From: Thermoanaerobaculum aquaticum | GTDB lineage: Bacteria > Acidobacteriota > Thermoanaerobaculia > Thermoanaerobaculales > Thermoanaerobaculaceae | Direction of reading: 5' to 3' | NCBI RefSeq assembly: GCF_000687145.1 | Contig: NZ_JMFG01000016.1 | Location: 138-64,137 of the forward strand | DNA: 64,000 bases | Program-made: the position numbers and the translations under genes | Shown: piece after piece, positions 17,192 to 54,278 of the stretch | How positions within the stretch are numbered: the first letter of the stretch is position 1 | How the letters are laid out: every line of letters starts with the position of its first letter | Notes under the pieces: generated by a model | Told to the model about the DNA's origin: nothing | The model's input: only the letters and a program-made list of their open reading frames with translations | Databases searched by the model: none

Positions 17192-18298
17192 ATGACACCC
17201 ACTCCAGCGAAGAAAACCCCGCTTTACCCCGTGCACCTCGAGGCTGGCGCCAAGATGGTGGAGTTCGCCGGTTGGGAAATGCCGGTGCAGTACAAGGGGG
17301 TTTTGGAGGAGCACCGGGCGGTGCGCACCCGCGTGGGCCTTTTTGACGTTTCCCACATGGGAGAGCTGGAGGTCGTGGGGAAAAGGGCGCTGGATTTCGT
17401 GCAGTACGTCACCTGCAACGATGCGTCTCGCCTGACCCCGGGTCGCGCTCAGTACTCGGGGCTCATGACCCCTCGCGGCACCTTCGTGGACGATCTTTTG
17501 GTACACATGCTTTCGCCGGAGCGCTTCCTCTTGGTGGTAAACGCCGCCAACAAAGATAAGGACTACGCCTACCTCTGCGCCCAGGCCCCCGCTTTTGACG
17601 ACGTGGACGTTTTCGACCGCTCAGCCCATTACGCGCAGCTGGCCATCCAGGGTCCGCTGGCGGAAAAGGTGCTGCAAAAGCTCACCGCTGAAAACCTTTC
17701 GGAGATCAAGTACTACCGGTTTGTGCAAGGAGAGGTGGCGGGAGTGCCGGCCATTATTGCCCGCACCGGCTACACCGGGGAAGACGGCTTCGAGGTGTAC
17801 ATCGCCCCGGATGCCGCGGGGAAGCTGTGGCGGTCCATTATGGAGGCAGGCGCCGAGTTTGAAATTCAGCCCTGCGGTCTGGGAGCCCGGGACACCCTGC
17901 GGTTTGAAGCGTGCATGCCGCTTTACGGCAACGACATTGACGACAGCACCACGCCCTTCGAGGCCGGTCTGGATTGGATTGTGAAGTTCGAAAAGGGACC
18001 CTTCCTGGGTCGCGATGCCCTGCTCCACCAGAGGGCTGCCGGCATCAAGCGCAAGCTGGTGGGGTTCGAAATGGTGGGGAAGGGGATCCCGCGCCACGGC
18101 TACCCCATCTTTGACGCCACCAGGGAGGTGGGGTTTGTGACCTCGGGGACCATGTCGCCCACCCTGGGCAAACCCTTAGGGTTGGGGTATGTCCCGGTGG
18201 AGCTTTCGGCGGAGGGCAGCGAAATTTTTGTGGACATCCGCGGCCAGAAGGTCCCGGCGCGGGTGATACCAACGCCGTTTTACCGGCGGGCGAAGTAA
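17192..18298 (+). CDS. gcvT: Glycine cleavage system T protein (aminomethyltransferase)
   Basis: A 368-residue tetrahydrofolate-dependent aminomethyltransferase. It takes the aminomethyl group from lipoyl-GcvH and releases ammonia and 5,10-methylene-THF. Family features are VSHMGELEV near residue 55, IARTGYTGEDGFEVY near 190 and the C-terminal GFVTSGTMSPTLGKPLGLGY. ATG 17192 follows AGGAGG. It is the first gene of the four-gene gcvT-H-PA-PB operon; gcvL is not present here. Confidence 0.96.
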   Translation: MTPTPAKKTPLYPVHLEAGAKMVEFAGWEMPVQYKGVLEEHRAVRTRVGLFDVSHMGELEVVGKRALDFVQYVTCNDASRLTPGRAQYSGLMTPRGTFVDDLLVHMLSPERFLLVVNAANKDKDYAYLCAQAPAFDDVDVFDRSAHYAQLAIQGPLAEKVLQKLTAENLSEIKYYRFVQGEVAGVPAIIARTGYTGEDGFEVYIAPDAAGKLWRSIMEAGAEFEIQPCGLGARDTLRFEACMPLYGNDIDDSTTPFEAGLDWIVKFEKGPFLGRDALLHQRAAGIKRKLVGFEMVGKGIPRHGYPIFDATREVGFVTSGTMSPTLGKPLGLGYVPVELSAEGSEIFVDIRGQKVPARVIPTPFYRRAK

Positions 18299-18315
18299 GA
18301 AAAAGGGAGGTAAGA

Positions 18316-18702
18316 ATGGCACGACCGGAAAACCTTCTCTACAGCAAGACCCACGAATGGGTGCGGGTAGATGGGGACATCGCCACGGTGGGGATTACCG
18401 ACTACGCCCAGGAGCAGCTGGGCGACGTGGTGATGGTGGATTTCCCCGCCGTGGGCAAGGCGGTGCAAGCCGGGCAGGAAATGGGCACGGTGGAGTCGGT
18501 AAAGGCGGTTTCCGAGGTGTTTTCGCCGGTTTCGGGGGAAGTGGTGGAGGTCAACGGCGAACTGGAAGCGCACCCCGAGCTGGTCAACCAGGACCCCTTT
18601 GGCTCCGGATGGCTGGTCAAGATTAAGGTGAGCCAGGTCCCTTCGGACCTCATGGATGCCAAAGCCTACGAGCAGTTTGTCCAGGAGGAAGGGGGTCATT
18701 GA
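18316..18702 (+). CDS. gcvH: Glycine cleavage system H protein
   Basis: A 128-residue lipoyl carrier protein that shuttles the aminomethyl intermediate between P, T and L proteins. The lipoylation site is K63 in VESVKAVSEV. The N terminus (LLYSKTHEWVRVDGDIATVG) is diagnostic. It lies 17 bp after gcvT with AGGGAGG as ribosome site, and its stop overlaps the gcvPA start (TGATG). Confidence 0.97.
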   Translation: MARPENLLYSKTHEWVRVDGDIATVGITDYAQEQLGDVVMVDFPAVGKAVQAGQEMGTVESVKAVSEVFSPVSGEVVEVNGELEAHPELVNQDPFGSGWLVKIKVSQVPSDLMDAKAYEQFVQEEGGH

Positions 18703-20036
18703 TGCACCGGTACCAGCCGGGGGCGGGGGATCGCCAGCGCATCCTTCAGTTTCTTGGCTTGAAATCCCCGGAAGAGCTCTTCGCGGCCATTCCCCAGGAG
18801 GTCAGAGTTGGCGAGCTGCCCTTGCCTTTGGGCATGGCGGAGGAGGAAGTCCGCAGGGTTTTCCGGGAGTGGGCGGCAGCCAACGTCACCGCCGAAGAGA
18901 AGGTGAGCTTCCTGGGCGCCGGGGTTTACCGGCACGTGGTGCCGGCGGTGATGGACGCGGTGCTTTCCCGGGCTGAGTTCTTCACGGCGTACACCCCTTA
19001 CCAGCCCGAGGTCAGCCAGGGCACGCTGCAGGCCATTTTCGAGTTTCAAACCTACGTGTGTTTGCTCACCGAAATGCCGGTGGCCAACGCTTCCCTTTAC
19101 GACGGTGCCACCGCCGTGGTGGAAGCCGTGCTCATGGCCGCCCGCCTGCGGCCGGAAAAGCGCAAGGTTTTTGTTTCCCGGCTTATCCACCCCGATTACC
19201 TGGCCACCCTGCGCACCTACGCGGAAGCGGCGGAGCTGGAGCTTTTAGAGCTTCCCTGGGATGGGGCCGGTCGCACTGACCTGAGCCAGATTCATCCTGA
19301 AGAAGCGGTGGCGGTGGTGGTGCAGTCCCCCAACGTTTTGGGGGTCGTTGAGGATCTGGCGGCGGTGAAGAAGGCTTCCGGTGAGGCGCTTTCGGTGCAG
19401 GTGGTGGCGGAAGCCACCTCCCTGGGGCTTTTGGCCCCCGGCGGCCGCTTTGGTTTTGACGTGGTTTGTGGGGACATGCAGGCCTTTGGGCTGCCTCCCT
19501 CCTTTGGTGGCCCCCATGTGGGCTTTTTTGCCACCCGTAAAGAGTACCTCCGGCAAATGCCGGGAAGGCTGGTAGGGCAGACCGTGGACGCCGACGGACA
19601 GAGGGCGTTTGTGCTCACGCTTTCCACCCGCGAGCAACACATCCGCCGCGCCAAGGCCACCTCAAACATCTGCACGAACCATTCCCTCATGGCCCTGGGG
19701 GTTACGGTGGTGCTTTCGCTTCTGGGCAAAAAGGGGGTCCGCGAGCTGGCGTTGGCCTCCCACGCCAAGGCCGAGTACCTGAAGAAGCGCCTGGCCTCGC
19801 TGGCCCCCAAGGTGCAGCTGGCCTTCCCTGAAAGCCCCACGTACAACGAGTTTTTGCTCCTCCATGGGGAGCCGGAAAAGCTTTTGGCGCGGCTTTCCGA
19901 GGAAGGGATCCTGGGGGGCGTGGCCACCAGCCGGCTGGCTTCCTACCTGCCCCCGGGTGTCTTGGTGGCCGTCACCGAAAAGAACACCAGGGAGGAGTGC
20001 GATCGTTTGGTGGACGCATTGGGGAGGCTGGCATGA
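18702..20036 (+). CDS. gcvPA: Glycine dehydrogenase (decarboxylating) subunit 1
   Basis: A 444-residue subunit of the two-part P protein, the pyridoxal-phosphate decarboxylase of the glycine cleavage system. The N-terminal half of the P protein is a separate gene here, as in Gram-positives, Thermus and archaea. Features include YTPYQPEVSQGTLQAIFEFQ and the glycine-rich PPSFGGPHVG. The PLP lysine is in the partner subunit. ATG 18702 overlaps the gcvH stop. Split P protein is normal for the family and not a frameshift. Confidence 0.95.
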   Translation: MHRYQPGAGDRQRILQFLGLKSPEELFAAIPQEVRVGELPLPLGMAEEEVRRVFREWAAANVTAEEKVSFLGAGVYRHVVPAVMDAVLSRAEFFTAYTPYQPEVSQGTLQAIFEFQTYVCLLTEMPVANASLYDGATAVVEAVLMAARLRPEKRKVFVSRLIHPDYLATLRTYAEAAELELLELPWDGAGRTDLSQIHPEEAVAVVVQSPNVLGVVEDLAAVKKASGEALSVQVVAEATSLGLLAPGGRFGFDVVCGDMQAFGLPPSFGGPHVGFFATRKEYLRQMPGRLVGQTVDADGQRAFVLTLSTREQHIRRAKATSNICTNHSLMALGVTVVLSLLGKKGVRELALASHAKAEYLKKRLASLAPKVQLAFPESPTYNEFLLLHGEPEKLLARLSEEGILGGVATSRLASYLPPGVLVAVTEKNTREECDRLVDALGRLA

Positions 20037-21520
20037 AGGGGAAATCCTTGCGGGCCCGGGAAGCCCTGATCTTTGAGCGTTCCACGCCGGGAACCGTGGG
20101 TTACCAGCTTCCGGCCTTCGACGTGGAGCCGGTGGACCCCGCCAAGACGCTAGGTGCCGAGCTGGTGCGCGGGGAAATTGCAGACCTCCCCGAAGTTTCG
20201 GAGGTGGAGGTGGTCCGTCACTTCCACCGCCTCTCCCAGTGGAACTACGCCGTGGATGAGGGACTTTACCCCCTGGGCTCCTGCACCATGAAGTACAACC
20301 CCCGCATCAACGAGGAGCTGGCCCGGCTTTCCGGCTTTGCCCAGGTGCACCCCCTGCAACCGGAAAGCGAGGTGCAGGGTGCCTTGCGGCTCATGTGGGA
20401 GCTGGAGCAGGCGCTCATTGGCATAACCGGCATGGCCCGGGTCACCCTGCAGCCAGCAGCCGGTGCTCACGGTGAGCTCGCCGGCATGCTCATGATCCGC
20501 AAGGCGCTGGAAGACCGGGGTGAGGGCCGGCGCACGGTGCTGATCCCCGACTCCGCCCACGGCACCAACCCCGCTTCGGCGGTTTTTGCCGGGTTCAAGG
20601 TCAAAGAAATTGCCTCCACTTCAGCGGGAACTCTGGATGTGGACGCCCTGAGGCGGGAGCTGGAAAGCGGGGACGTAGCGGCGCTCATGATTACGGTGCC
20701 CAACACGTTGGGGGTTTTTGAGCCGGAAATTGCCAAAGCTGCCGCCATGCTGCACGAAAAGGGCGCCTTTCTTTACATGGATGGTGCCAACCTCAACGCC
20801 TTCGTGGGGGTTGCTTCCCCAGGGAAAATGGGCGCTGACGCCCTGCACATTAATCTGCACAAGACCTTTTCCACCCCTCACGGTGGAGGGGGGCCGGGAG
20901 CGGGACCGGTGGCGGTTTCCCGCCTTTTGGAGCCGTACCTGCCGGTACCGGTGGTGGAAAAGCGCCAGGGCGTGTTCACCCTGGACTACGACCGCCCCAA
21001 GAGCATTGGCAAGGTTCGCTCCTTTTACGGCAACTTCGGCATCATGGTGCGGGCCCTGGCCTATATCCTCTCCCTGGGGCGGAACGGGCTTAAGGCCATG
21101 ACCGAAGCGGCGGTCCTGAACGCCAACTACCTGCGGCGGGCCCTTGCGGAGCACTACCACCTGCCCTACCAAAGCCCCACCTTGCACGAAGTGGTGTTTG
21201 ACGACTCCCGGCAAAAGCCCTTCGGTGTTTCCAACATTGACATTGCTAAAAGGCTTCTGGACTACGGTTTCCACGCACCCACCGTGTCCTTCCCGCTCAT
21301 CGTGCACGGGGCGCTGATGATCGAACCCACCGACAGCGAAAGCTTGGCCGAGCTGGAGGCTTTTGTGGAAGCCATGAAGGCCATTGCCCAGGAAGCCAGG
21401 GAAAACCCCGAGCTTTTGAAAACCGCGCCCCACACCACGCCGGTGCGCCGCTTGGACGAGGTCCGGGCCGCCCGGCAACCGATCCTGCGCTGGTACCCCC
21501 AGGGCGCGGAAAGCCCCTAA
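20033..21520 (+). CDS. gcvPB: Glycine dehydrogenase (decarboxylating) subunit 2
   Basis: A 495-residue catalytic subunit. The PLP lysine is K277 in NLHKTFSTPHGGGGPG. Other P-protein hallmarks are LGSCTMKYNPRIN near residue 95 and PDSAHGTNPAS near 180. ATG 20033 overlaps the gcvPA stop as ATGA, so the two subunits are made in a coupled, probably equimolar way. It ends the operon; 128 bp separate it from queD. Confidence 0.96.
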   Translation: MKGKSLRAREALIFERSTPGTVGYQLPAFDVEPVDPAKTLGAELVRGEIADLPEVSEVEVVRHFHRLSQWNYAVDEGLYPLGSCTMKYNPRINEELARLSGFAQVHPLQPESEVQGALRLMWELEQALIGITGMARVTLQPAAGAHGELAGMLMIRKALEDRGEGRRTVLIPDSAHGTNPASAVFAGFKVKEIASTSAGTLDVDALRRELESGDVAALMITVPNTLGVFEPEIAKAAAMLHEKGAFLYMDGANLNAFVGVASPGKMGADALHINLHKTFSTPHGGGGPGAGPVAVSRLLEPYLPVPVVEKRQGVFTLDYDRPKSIGKVRSFYGNFGIMVRALAYILSLGRNGLKAMTEAAVLNANYLRRALAEHYHLPYQSPTLHEVVFDDSRQKPFGVSNIDIAKRLLDYGFHAPTVSFPLIVHGALMIEPTDSESLAELEAFVEAMKAIAQEARENPELLKTAPHTTPVRRLDEVRAARQPILRWYPQGAESP

Positions 21521-21648: not shown

Positions 21649-22110
21649 ATGGGAAGCTTTCGGGTTGCCAAGCAGTTCACCTTTGACGCCGGGCATCGGC
21701 TCGTTTCCCACCCCGAGCTTTGCCGCCACCTGCACGGCCACACCTATCGGGTGGAGGTGGTGCTGGAGGCGCCCTCTTTGGACCCCAACGCCATGGTTTG
21801 CGACTACAAGGCCCTTTCGCTATTGGTGCGTTCGGTCCTGGCCCCCCTGGATCACGCCATGATCCTTTGGCGGGAGGACCCCCTTCGCGGGGTTCTGGAG
21901 CAAGCCGGGGAAAGGGTGGTTGTCCTGGATGCGGAGCCCAGCGCCGAGGTTTTAGCTCAGCACCTCTTTTCCGAGATCAAAAAGGTGCTGGCCCAGGCTG
22001 CCGCCGAGCCGCAGCGGGTGGCCCCCTACCGCTGGCGCCCGGAAATCCGACTGGTTTCGGTTCGCCTTTGGGAAACCCCCACCACCTGGGCGGAGTACAG
22101 CGAAGCATGA
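21649..22110 (+). CDS. queD: 6-carboxytetrahydropterin synthase (QueD/PTPS family)
   Basis: A 153-residue PTPS-family enzyme. Zinc ligands are H16, H29 and H31; the catalytic cysteine is C25 in the C-X3-HGH motif (CRHLHGH) that marks QueD. QueD converts dihydroneopterin triphosphate to 6-carboxytetrahydropterin on the route to queuosine. No queC, queE or queF lies nearby. It overlaps the next gene by ATGA, so it is co-transcribed with the putative sphingolipid genes, perhaps by chance of operon packing. Confidence 0.88.
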   Translation: MGSFRVAKQFTFDAGHRLVSHPELCRHLHGHTYRVEVVLEAPSLDPNAMVCDYKALSLLVRSVLAPLDHAMILWREDPLRGVLEQAGERVVVLDAEPSAEVLAQHLFSEIKKVLAQAAAEPQRVAPYRWRPEIRLVSVRLWETPTTWAEYSEA

Positions 22111-23165
22111 GCGCAAGCCTGGAAAAAAGCCTTCCCCCTCCGCTGGACGTGCAGGACCTGACGGCCCTTTGCGCGGCCATCCCTCAGCCCATTGGCGTCA
22201 CGGGTGCTACAGGGTTCGTGGGTAGCCACCTTCTTGAAGCGCTGGTGGCCGGCGGTGCAGCGGTACGGCTTTTGGTGCGGGACCCCAAGAAGCTGCCCAC
22301 GGCTTTGGCTTCCCAGGTGGAAGTGGTGGTGGGCGATTTGGGCGATGACGCTGCTTTGCAGCAGTTTGCGGCGGGTTTGGGGACGGTGCTGCACCTGGCC
22401 GGGCTGGTGCGTGCCCGGCGGGAGGAGCAGTTCGTTGCGGCCAACGCGGTGGGGACAGCCAAGTTAGTGGCTGCTCTCGAAAAAACCGCAGCAAAACCCC
22501 GCTTTGTTTACGTTTCCTCGCTGGCCGCTGCCGGTCCTTCGCCAAATCCTGAGGGTCGCGCCCCGGAAGACCCGCCGGCCCCCATTTCCGCTTACGGGCG
22601 CTCCAAGCTTGCGGGGGAAAGGGCGGTGGCCGGGTATGGGGGGAGCTGGGTCATCCTGCGCCCTCCGGCCATTTACGGGCCCCGCGACCGCGATGTTTTG
22701 CAGTTTTTCAAGATGGCCAGCCAGGGTTGGCTCTTTTACCCGCGGGGGGAACGCTACATTACGGTGGCCTTTGTGGGGGACGTGGTCCTGGCGGTGCTGC
22801 GGGCGGCGGCAAGCTCACGTTCCGGCAGCATCTTCCACCTGGGTGAGCCCACACCGTACCCCATGGGGGTTTTGCTGCAAACCTTGGTGGAAGCGGGCAA
22901 GGTGCGGGCCAGGGTGGTGCCTCTTCCGGGCCTCATTTTCCGCGTGGCGGGTCTGGTGGGCGACGGGCTTCACCTATTAGGCTTTCGCGATGTACCCATG
23001 ACGTCGGATAAAGCCAGCGAGCTGCTGGCCCGCCACTGGACGGCGCAGACCCGTTCTTCCCTTTCGGCCCTTGAGCTCCCGGAGCCGGTACCCTTCCGTC
23101 AAGGTGCCGTGCTGACCTGGGCCTGGTACCGGAGGGAAGGATGGTTACCGCATGGTAAGATTTGA
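22107..23165 (+). CDS. NAD(P)-dependent epimerase/dehydratase-family reductase (CerR candidate)
   Basis: A 352-residue extended short-chain dehydrogenase. The Rossmann motif is GATGFVGSH (residues about 32-40). The catalytic region has VSSLAAAG and the Y-x3-K pair in SAYGRSKLAGE. Next to a serine-palmitoyltransferase-like gene, the best-supported role is reduction of the 3-keto group of 3-ketoceramide or 3-ketosphinganine, as done by CerR in Caulobacter; this is inference from context. Sterol or sugar substrates remain possible. ATGA overlap with queD. Confidence 0.8.
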   Translation: MSASLEKSLPPPLDVQDLTALCAAIPQPIGVTGATGFVGSHLLEALVAGGAAVRLLVRDPKKLPTALASQVEVVVGDLGDDAALQQFAAGLGTVLHLAGLVRARREEQFVAANAVGTAKLVAALEKTAAKPRFVYVSSLAAAGPSPNPEGRAPEDPPAPISAYGRSKLAGERAVAGYGGSWVILRPPAIYGPRDRDVLQFFKMASQGWLFYPRGERYITVAFVGDVVLAVLRAAASSRSGSIFHLGEPTPYPMGVLLQTLVEAGKVRARVVPLPGLIFRVAGLVGDGLHLLGFRDVPMTSDKASELLARHWTAQTRSSLSALELPEPVPFRQGAVLTWAWYRREGWLPHGKI

Positions 23166-24387
23166 CACGATGACGGACGGAGCGCGCGAAAGGGGTAAAA
23201 GCGTGGACATTTTTCAAAAGTGCTACGACTTCCGCGATGCCGATGAGGTAAAACAGGCCGGGCTTTACAGCTACTTTCGCATGATCTCCTCGGCCCAGGA
23301 ACCGGTGGTGATGATGAACGGCCGGGAGGTGGTAATGCTGGGCTCCAACAACTACCTGGGGCTCACCAACCACCCGGAGGTGAAAAAGGCGGCTCAGGAA
23401 GCCGTGGCCAAGTACGGCACGGGTTGTGCCGGGTCACGGTTTTTGAACGGCACCCTGGATATTCACGTGCAGCTGGAGGAAAAGCTGGCGCAGTTCATGC
23501 GCAAGGAAGCAGCTTTGACCTTTTCCACCGGCTTTCAGGTGAATCTCGGCACGGTTTCCTGCCTGGTGGAGCGGGGGGACATCGTTTACCTCGACAAGCT
23601 GGACCACGCCTGCATCATTGACGGGGCGCGGCTGGGTTTTGGCACCGTGGTGAAGTACGAGCACAACGACGTGGCCGATTTGGACCGCCGCTTGTCCCTC
23701 AAGGACCCTTCCCGCGGCGCTCTGGTGGTGGTGGATGGTGTTTTCTCCATGGAGGGCGACATCGTCAACCTCCCGGGCCTGGTAGAGGTTTGCCAAAAGC
23801 ACGGCGCCCGCCTCATGGTGGACAACGCCCACGGCATTGGCGTTTTGGGGGAGCACGGGCGCGGCACCGCCGAGCACTTTGGCCTTGAGGACAAGGTGGA
23901 CCTCATCATGGGCACCTTCTCCAAGTCGCTGGCTTCGGTGGGAGGGTTCATTGCCGGCGAGGAGAGGGTCATCAACTGGATCAAGCACCGCGCCCGCTCG
24001 TTGATCTTTTCGGCGGCTCCCCCACCGGCCTCGGTGGCGGCGGTGCTCAAAGCCGTGGAGATCATCGAGCGCGAGCCGGAACGCCGGGCCAAGCTGTGGG
24101 AAAACACCGCCTTCATGAAGCGTGAGCTGGCCAACTTGGGTTTTGACACCGGCGACTCCCAAACCCCGGTGATTCCGGTGGTGGTGGGTGAAGACCGCCT
24201 GGCGTTCTTCATGGCCAAACGCCTGGAGGAGGAAGGGGTGTTTGTGAACCCCGTGATTTCCCCGGCGGTGCCTCCCGGCCGCGCGTTGCTCCGCACCTCC
24301 TACATGGCCACCCACACCCGGGAGCATTTGGAAAGAGCGTTGGCGGCGTTTGCCAAAGTGGGCCGCGAGGTGGGCTTGATCCCATGA
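23152..24387 (+). CDS. Serine palmitoyltransferase-like alpha-oxoamine synthase
   Basis: A 411-residue PLP enzyme of the alpha-oxoamine synthase family (KBL, BioF, SPT). The PLP lysine is K258 in GTFSKSLASVGG; H-bonding motifs DNAHGIGVLG and GSNNYLGLTNHP are present. The family condenses an amino acid with an acyl thioester. The N terminus VDIFQKCYDF, the RTSYMATHT region and the neighbours favour serine palmitoyltransferase over KBL or BioF. ATG 23152 follows GGAGGGAAGG; ATG 23170, with TAAGAT 8 nt upstream, is a credible alternative. It overlaps genes on both sides. Confidence 0.8.
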   Translation: MVRFDTMTDGARERGKSVDIFQKCYDFRDADEVKQAGLYSYFRMISSAQEPVVMMNGREVVMLGSNNYLGLTNHPEVKKAAQEAVAKYGTGCAGSRFLNGTLDIHVQLEEKLAQFMRKEAALTFSTGFQVNLGTVSCLVERGDIVYLDKLDHACIIDGARLGFGTVVKYEHNDVADLDRRLSLKDPSRGALVVVDGVFSMEGDIVNLPGLVEVCQKHGARLMVDNAHGIGVLGEHGRGTAEHFGLEDKVDLIMGTFSKSLASVGGFIAGEERVINWIKHRARSLIFSAAPPPASVAAVLKAVEIIEREPERRAKLWENTAFMKRELANLGFDTGDSQTPVIPVVVGEDRLAFFMAKRLEEEGVFVNPVISPAVPPGRALLRTSYMATHTREHLERALAAFAKVGREVGLIP

Positions 24388-25520
24388 GCGTACTGCCCCT
24401 CCGCCTGGAGCCGGTCCAAAGCCGCGAGCAGTGGCGGCACTTCCTGGACCTGCCCTGGCGGATTTATCGTGGCGACCCTTGCTGGGTGCCACCGCTCAAA
24501 AAGCAAGTCAGGGGTTACCTGGACCTCAGCCACCCGTTTTACGCTTACGGACGGGCGGAACGCGAGGTCTTCCTGGCCTACCGCGGGAGCCGGCCGGTGG
24601 GGCGCATTGCCGCCATCCTCAACCGCGCCCACAACCAGTTCCACGGGGATCGCTGGGGCTTTTTTGGCTTTTTTGAGTGCGAGGACGACCCCGAAGCCGC
24701 CGGTGAGTTGCTGGCGGCAGCGGCCCGCTGGCTTAAGGAAAAGGGTTGCGAGGCCATGGTGGGGCCGGTCAACCCCTCCACCAACTACGAGTGTGGTTTG
24801 CTGGTGGAGGGCTTTGACACCCCGCCCACGGTGATGATGACCTACAACCCGCCGTACTACGCTTCGCTTTTGGAAAGCTGGGGGCTCGTCAAAGCCAAAG
24901 ACCTTTACGCCTACTGGTCCCCGGTGCATCCCGGCTCGTTGGATCGGCTCCGCCGCTTTTCGGAGCGCACCCAGGAGCGGGAGCCCAGCCTCACCGTTCG
25001 TGCCGTCAACCTCAAGGACTTTGCCAACGAGGTGCGGATCATCCAGGACATTTACAACAAGGCCTGGGAAAAGAACTGGGGGTTTGTGCCTACCTCCGAC
25101 GAGGAGTTCGCCTGGCTGGCCCGGGAGCTGAAGCCTTTAGTGGACCCCAAGCTGCTCTACATTGCCTTTTACGACGGGGACCCTGCGGGCTTTTTGCTTG
25201 CCCTCCCCGATGTCAACCCCGCCCTGGCCGAGCTCAACGGCAGCATGGCTAACCCCTTCCGGCTCTTGCGGGCCTACTGGGTGGGGCGCAAACCAGTGGG
25301 CTTGCGCCTCATCACCATGGGGGTCAAGCAGCAGTACCGCTTGCGGGGCATTGAGGGCGTGATGTTCTACCACGGGCTGCAAGCCGCTTTGGATCGCGGC
25401 TACCGCTGGTGCGAGTACTCCTGGATTCTGGAGGACAACGAGCTGGCCAAGCGCACGGTGCGGCTCATGGATGCCAAGCTCACCAAGGTGTACCGGCTTT
25501 ACAGCAAGCCGCTGGCGTAA
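24384..25520 (+). CDS. GNAT-like acyltransferase (bacterial ceramide synthase candidate)
   Basis: A 378-residue protein resembling large GNAT-fold proteins often found beside serine palmitoyltransferase genes. The central block GPVNPSTNYECGLLVEGFD and the C-terminal acyltransferase-like region (LRLITMGVKQQYRLRGIEG) are its clearest features. A proposed role is N-acylation of the sphingoid base or its 3-keto precursor, as by the unrelated-to-eukaryotic enzyme bCerS of Caulobacter. That assignment comes from context. ATG 24384 overlaps the upstream stop (ATGA), ending a tightly coupled four-gene run from queD. Confidence 0.7.
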   Translation: MSVLPLRLEPVQSREQWRHFLDLPWRIYRGDPCWVPPLKKQVRGYLDLSHPFYAYGRAEREVFLAYRGSRPVGRIAAILNRAHNQFHGDRWGFFGFFECEDDPEAAGELLAAAARWLKEKGCEAMVGPVNPSTNYECGLLVEGFDTPPTVMMTYNPPYYASLLESWGLVKAKDLYAYWSPVHPGSLDRLRRFSERTQEREPSLTVRAVNLKDFANEVRIIQDIYNKAWEKNWGFVPTSDEEFAWLARELKPLVDPKLLYIAFYDGDPAGFLLALPDVNPALAELNGSMANPFRLLRAYWVGRKPVGLRLITMGVKQQYRLRGIEGVMFYHGLQAALDRGYRWCEYSWILEDNELAKRTVRLMDAKLTKVYRLYSKPLA

Positions 25521-53402: not shown

Positions 53403-54278
53403 CTAACGCGGCGCCAAAACGCTGAGGGCCCGGGGCAGCACCGACACCTCGATCCCGGGTGGGTCGCAGCGGAATGGGTTGCCATCCAGGTGCACATCGA
53501 GGGGTTGTTGGCAGGAAAGGCGCAAGCGCTGGAAGCGCAAAAAGTGGGATTTGGGCCAGCGGTGCAGGCTGCCCCGGAGAGCTGCGAGCAAACGGGGAAA
53601 GCGCCCCGCGATCCCCACACCTTCCACCAGACAAGCCTCCAGCTGGCCGTCGTCGGGCACCGCTCCGGGGGCGAGCCGGAAGCCGCCACCGGTGGTGGGT
53701 CCGTTGTGAATGGCCAGGATCGTCATGGCTCCGCGGTAGCGGAAGCCCTCACTTTCCAGCTCCACGGTGGGCGGTCGGTAACGGAAAAGCGTGTGCACGG
53801 CTGCCAAAAGGTAGGCCGTAAGGCCTCGCACCTTTTTGAGGCCGGCGGCTTTCACGTTGATGGCTCCCAACATCCCCATCCCCACGGCGTTGACCACCAC
53901 CCGGGAGCCCACCCGCATGAGGTCCACCTCCCGCAGCTGCGGCTGGTGCAGGGTGGCAATGGCGGCTTTGAGCTTGCGGGGGATTCCCAAAGTTCGCGCG
54001 GTGTCGTTGCCGGTGCCCAGGGGAAGAATACCCAAAACGCCGCCGCCCGCTTGATGCAGACCCTCCACCACCTCGCAAATGGTGCCGTCTCCTCCCACCG
54101 CCACCACCGCCTCGGTACCCTTGGCCACCGCTTCGGCGGCCAGCTCGGTGGCGTGGCCTGGGGCGCGGGTAAACGCCTGGGGGACCTTCAACCCAACGCT
54201 TTCCAACAAGCTACGCACCCGCGGCCACTGTTTGCCCAACCTGCCTCCTGCCGCCGCTGGGTTCACGATCAAAAGCAC
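53403..54278 (-). CDS. Diacylglycerol/lipid kinase (DagK-like)
   Basis: A 291-residue kinase of the DAGK/YegS/sphingosine-kinase superfamily. The ATP-binding motif is GGDGT at residues 62-66, preceded by LLIVNPAAAGG. It phosphorylates a lipid hydroxyl such as diacylglycerol or, given the sphingolipid genes in this window, possibly a sphingoid base. GTG 54278 has no ribosome site and a TAGAGT box 6 nt upstream. It is converging with rluA. Confidence 0.86.
   Translation of the reverse strand: MLLIVNPAAAGGRLGKQWPRVRSLLESVGLKVPQAFTRAPGHATELAAEAVAKGTEAVVAVGGDGTICEVVEGLHQAGGGVLGILPLGTGNDTARTLGIPRKLKAAIATLHQPQLREVDLMRVGSRVVVNAVGMGMLGAINVKAAGLKKVRGLTAYLLAAVHTLFRYRPPTVELESEGFRYRGAMTILAIHNGPTTGGGFRLAPGAVPDDGQLEACLVEGVGIAGRFPRLLAALRGSLHRWPKSHFLRFQRLRLSCQQPLDVHLDGNPFRCDPPGIEVSVLPRALSVLAPR

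Follow-up and report, generated by a model that had tools for sequence, protein, structure and literature searches.

Do Acidobacteriota make sphingolipids? A 2023 study of soil lipidomes, having detected a correlation between ceramides and a sequence variant from Acidobacteriota, asked this question of the phylum (PMC9969633), and it arises again from a 64,000-nucleotide stretch of the Thermoanaerobaculum aquaticum genome (contig NZ_JMFG01000016.1; hereinafter, the window), for which an earlier note had proposed a ceramide pathway encoded in three overlapping genes. The analysis of this locus and of the 2.66 Mb assembly that contains it (96% complete) indicates that the three genes comprise one translationally coupled operon for the synthesis of the ceramide backbone; we put the probability of this reading at about 0.85.

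The genes in question belong to a run of four consecutive genes on the forward strand (positions 21649-25520 of the window). The run starts with a queD-like gene of the 6-carboxytetrahydropterin synthase family (21649..22110; PF01242, 105 bits), the product of which scores 82 bits against the TIGR03367 QueD model, where the cut-off is 89. It continues with a gene for an extended SDR in the position of CerR (22107..23165, 352 aa; PF01370, 112 bits), the spt gene for a putative serine palmitoyltransferase (23152..24387, 411 aa), and the gene for a tandem GNAT N-acyltransferase of the YghO/CC_1154 family, a predicted bacterial ceramide synthase, or bCerS (24384..25520, 378 aa). The coordinates of the three latter genes (22107-25520) and their overlaps of 4-14 bp reported previously were reproduced, and so was the placement of queD upstream: queD and the SDR gene overlap by 4 bp (ATGA), as do spt and the GNAT gene (ATGA), whereas the overlap between the SDR gene and spt is 14 bp if spt starts at the ATG at 23152 and disappears if the ATG at 23170 is used instead. 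The SDR, Spt and GNAT proteins are 37-95% identical to their counterparts in relatives at the levels of genus, family, order and class, and the gene order is conserved, so these frames are real genes. The block is presumably co-transcribed, with queD apparently the first gene of the transcript, albeit probably functionally unrelated to the ceramide genes. The queD gene is immediately preceded, in the same orientation, by a complete glycine cleavage set, gcvT, gcvH, gcvPA and gcvPB (17192-21520); a role for this set in serine supply is unsupported, given that, among the relatives examined, it adjoins the operon only within the genus.

The PLP-dependent enzyme scores 580 bits (579.9) against NF047600, the NCBIfam model of the Bacteroidota-type serine palmitoyltransferase, and its nearest homolog of known structure is the Spt of Sphingobacterium multivorum (PDB 3a2b, 8guh), which is matched over nearly the whole length with 472 bits. 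The GTFSKSL motif, in which the earlier note had located the PLP lysine, is present, with K258 as that lysine. From the structures of the S. multivorum enzyme (PMC10196870), 19 positions in the active site and the pocket were compared, and 18 of them are identical in the window Spt, including N66, S95, H152, S199, D224, H227, T255, S257, K258 and R381 (numbering of the window protein); at the single mismatched position, M271 of the S. multivorum enzyme, which acts via its main chain, is replaced by an isoleucine that is also found in 64 of the 80 Spts compared. The shortfall of the profile score relative to the curated cut-off of this best-matching model (580 vs 640) counts against the ceramide reading. 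Taken together, the profile scores, the best solved match, the phylogenetic tree and the active-site residues favor Spt, as had been suggested, and we consider the protein to be a Bacteroidota-type serine palmitoyltransferase, judging from these comparisons. Matches to Spt with E <= 1e-100 were found in 109 of the 297 genomes sampled from the phylum; KBL-like proteins may account for the weaker matches.

The GNAT protein aligns with E. coli YghO over 99% of its length (33.8% identity, E 5e-59). The connection to the ceramide synthase of Caulobacter, CC_1154, was made through YghO, the gene for which (ECD_02850) has been grouped with CC_1154 (PMC9386255). The AlphaFold model of the protein (mean pLDDT 93) matches tandem GNAT structures; a sequence search yielded no convincing solved bCerS homolog in the PDB. 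Among named relatives, the closest are those from 'Acidobacteria bacterium RBG_13_68_16' (72% identity) and 'Thermoanaerobaculia bacterium' (63%). The genome encodes no YghO-family protein other than this one; in some relatives (G010, G013, G015), there is a second family member that is 35-38% identical to the window protein and near which spt was not found. Thus, the GNAT protein falls within the bCerS family rather than outside of it, the outcome that the earlier note had considered adverse, and its full-length homology and location beside spt agree with the function proposed there; the protein is predicted to be a bacterial ceramide synthase. In an E. coli record, yghO is similarly located beside spt, along with genes for an acyl carrier protein, an epimerase-family protein and a fatty acyl-AMP ligase.

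The neighborhood of these genes is conserved well beyond the genus. The SDR-spt-GNAT block is retained at the levels of the family, the order and the class; queD adjoins the SDR gene in most relatives of the order, but not in the other families of the class, and outside the genus it is the only one of the window genes tested that relatives have in common at the expected place. Among the 80 best GTDB homologs of the GNAT protein, 60 are accompanied by spt within the stretch retrieved, and in 45 of these cases a related SDR gene is present as well; some of the remaining loci end at contig ends. These clusters come from Acidobacteriota, Zixiibacteriota, Gemmatimonadota, Elusimicrobiota, Myxococcota, Bdellovibrionota, Planctomycetota, Nitrospirota and other phyla, and the same trio is found on plasmids of Rubrobacter, Streptomyces and Aureispira.

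The SDR is a member of the epimerase/3beta-HSD superfamily and shares 27-39% identity with the SDRs encoded together with spt and the GNAT gene in E. coli, Rubrobacter, Streptomyces and Aureispira; in a phylogenetic tree, the window protein is placed with SDRs that are encoded in spt clusters across many phyla. Both this superfamily assignment and the position of the gene, on which the inferred role of the protein as a reductase rests, are as previously noted; orthology with the proteobacterial CerR, which had been implied as well, is neither shown nor rejected by the trees. The CerR of Caulobacter was found to be periplasmic. By eye, no obvious signal peptide is seen at the N-terminus of the window SDR. 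It is conceivable, although we are inclined to doubt it, that the cluster SDRs represent a separate, cytoplasmic lineage of reductases distinct from the periplasmic, NDUFA9-like CerR of Proteobacteria, in which case NAD(P)H-dependent keto reduction would take place in the cytoplasm in Acidobacteriota and numerous other phyla, possibly before N-acylation as in eukaryotes.

Under the ceramide reading, Spt would condense L-serine with a long-chain acyl thioester to yield 3-ketodihydrosphingosine, the YghO-family GNAT protein would add the second acyl chain to the amine of this intermediate, and the SDR would then reduce the 3-keto group with NAD(P)H, producing dihydroceramide. The substrates and the succession of the two final steps are those that we infer, and any head group or membrane location of the product is likewise proposed conditionally; whether N-acylation precedes reduction is disputed in the literature.

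Three other explanations have to be weighed against this scheme. That the presumed Spt is in fact a KBL or a BioF, involved in threonine degradation or biotin synthesis and merely adjacent to lipid genes, is suggested by its membership in the same superfamily, by the scores of 426 and 407 bits with the KBL and BioF profiles, respectively, and by the presence in the genome of only one other, distant superfamily member. This second alpha-oxoamine synthase (G000:C2:28379-29422, outside the window) is 32% identical to Spt, contains the motif GTFGKAFG and is best matched by KBL models, but well below their cut-offs. Against a KBL or BioF identity, both the best model and the best solved match of the window protein are Spts, the second-nearest solved protein, the Thermus BioF/KBL, trailing at 362 bits. 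In a tree of 44 sequences, the window Spt is placed among the Spts of such clusters, by a split with 97 per cent support and with long outgroup branches, and apart from E. coli KBL, BioF, the Thermus BioF/KBL and the paralog from its own genome; the enzyme therefore groups with Spts, not with the families that the earlier note had named as the contrary outcome. Furthermore, the residue preceding the PLP lysine is serine in the window protein and glycine in E. coli KBL and BioF as well as in the paralog, and spt is constantly associated with the bCerS family. Finally, in a profile search of the genome, neither biotin synthase (bioB) nor threonine dehydrogenase (tdh) scored over the cut-off; given that the BioF or KBL readings would call for these enzymes, this result strengthens the operon reading. 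On the strength of the profiles, the tree, the residue before the lysine and the result for bioB and tdh, we rule out this extremely improbable identity. It is also distinctly unlikely that the same series of three steps leads to a related amino lipid instead, be it a 1-deoxyceramide derived from alanine or glycine or a sulfonolipid derived from cysteate. Spts do accept alanine and glycine at a low rate (PMC10196870), Spt-like enzymes have been tied to 1-deoxyceramides (PMC11334938), and a homologous enzyme is used in sulfonolipid synthesis (PMC9304779); nevertheless, all the serine-contacting residues of the S. multivorum Spt (N52, S81, H138, K244 and their neighbors) are retained, and the solved cysteate acyltransferase matches with 272 bits, compared to 472 for Spt.

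The remaining alternative accepts Spt and bCerS but assigns the reduction to a different protein, the SDR encoded on contig C8 (G000:C8:197946-198560), which from its sequence alone is taken to be NDUFA9-like. CerR is related to NDUFA9 (PMC11087976), and when E. coli CerR was used as the query, the window SDR was the first match in the genome with 79 bits, closely followed by the C8 protein with 70 bits; moreover, in one SDR tree, E. coli CerR joins the C8 paralog (SH-aLRT 89, long branches). However, the adjacent SDR gene is linked to spt throughout the class and in other phyla, and a topology uniting all cluster SDRs with E. coli CerR had the higher likelihood; in topology tests, the cluster SDRs were compatible with a single clade both with CerR (p-AU 0.70) and without it (p-AU 0.75), neither arrangement being rejected. 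We consider it unlikely that the C8 protein performs this step, and prefer the ceramide operon in which the adjacent SDR does.

The lipid context of the putative pathway can be sketched from the rest of the genome. The presence of LpxC makes it likely that lipid A is synthesized, and replacement of lipid A by sphingolipids, as in Sphingomonas, is accordingly unlikely; ceramide might reside in the outer membrane beside lipid A, as the earlier note had suggested. The sole LptF and LptG domains of the genome are found in one 877 aa open frame on contig C15 (G000:C15:39839-42124, outside the window), an apparent LptF-LptG fusion, and no second transporter of the Caulobacter LptF2/LptG2 type was found in the genome. 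The gene that had been noted as a member of the DAGK/sphingosine-kinase family does encode a lipid kinase of the YegS/Rv2252/BmrU family (53403-54278, reverse strand; TIGR00147 over the cut-off), but the suggested connection to the operon is unsupported: its neighbors are genes for cytochrome oxidase, a pseudouridine synthase, a DUF1579 protein and an SDR, and we rejected it as a member of the pathway. A comparison of the window genes with those of relatives revealed no conserved head-group gene beside the operon. Elsewhere, a gene of the diacylglycerol kinase family is located divergently next to spt in a plasmid record of Parabacteroides distasonis (L039:5771-8128), and another is part of a Roseomonas sphingolipid cluster (L031:6790-7737); these are possible ceramide kinases.

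The pathway and its wide spread among bacteria have been published before, and the operon is a well-supported new occurrence of a published gene set, not a new kind of system. Conservation of the three-gene operon in the class provides named genes with which the question of sphingolipids in Acidobacteriota can be tested, and an operon lacking AcpR and AasR would also lend itself well to testing whether N-acylation or reduction comes first, which is a matter of dispute.

Among the known systems, the rhodobacterial set consists of aasR, cerR, acpR, spt and cerS (CC_1165-CC_1162 plus CC_1154 in Caulobacter; ECD_02850-02854 in E. coli BL21), with cerR corresponding to CC_1164 and ECD_02852, respectively. 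All three proteins of the operon have counterparts in this set: the identity to the respective E. coli proteins is 40% for Spt, 27% for the extended SDR and 34% for the N-acyltransferase of the YghO/CC_1154 family; the Spt, unlike its rhodobacterial counterpart, is of the Bacteroidota type, and acpR and aasR are missing from the operon, the best match to AasR in the genome (28% identity, 82 bits) being encoded on another contig. With no dedicated acyl carrier protein or acyl-ACP synthetase accompanying spt, the operon lies outside the five-gene rhodobacterial set; hence the earlier description of a compact form of the Caulobacter genes holds for the three families but not for the type of Spt or the full complement of genes. 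Furthermore, cerS is described as always belonging to an operon separate from the de novo genes (PMC11324152), whereas in the window all three genes are joined in one operon. On a Roseomonas plasmid, the gene for the YghO homolog follows two LptF/LptG permease genes and immediately precedes one for a nucleotidyltransferase, an order resembling that of CC_1153-1156 in Caulobacter (PMC11324152). The S. multivorum Spt has GTFSKS and the active-site residues in common with the window enzyme and differs at Met271, the isoleucine in its place being shared with most Spts of such clusters. Bacteroidota usually keep the genes for Spt, bCerS and CerR apart, whereas among bacteria at large homologs of the three are often clustered and have been reported in 9 and subsequently in about 40 phyla (PMC11334938). 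Further parallels are the compact clusters of the Rubrobacter, Streptomyces and Aureispira plasmids and of Myxococcota, Gemmatimonadota, Zixiibacteriota and other phyla, in which the same three families adjoin one another, with gene order and strand that vary, and with queD joined to them mainly in the order to which the window belongs.
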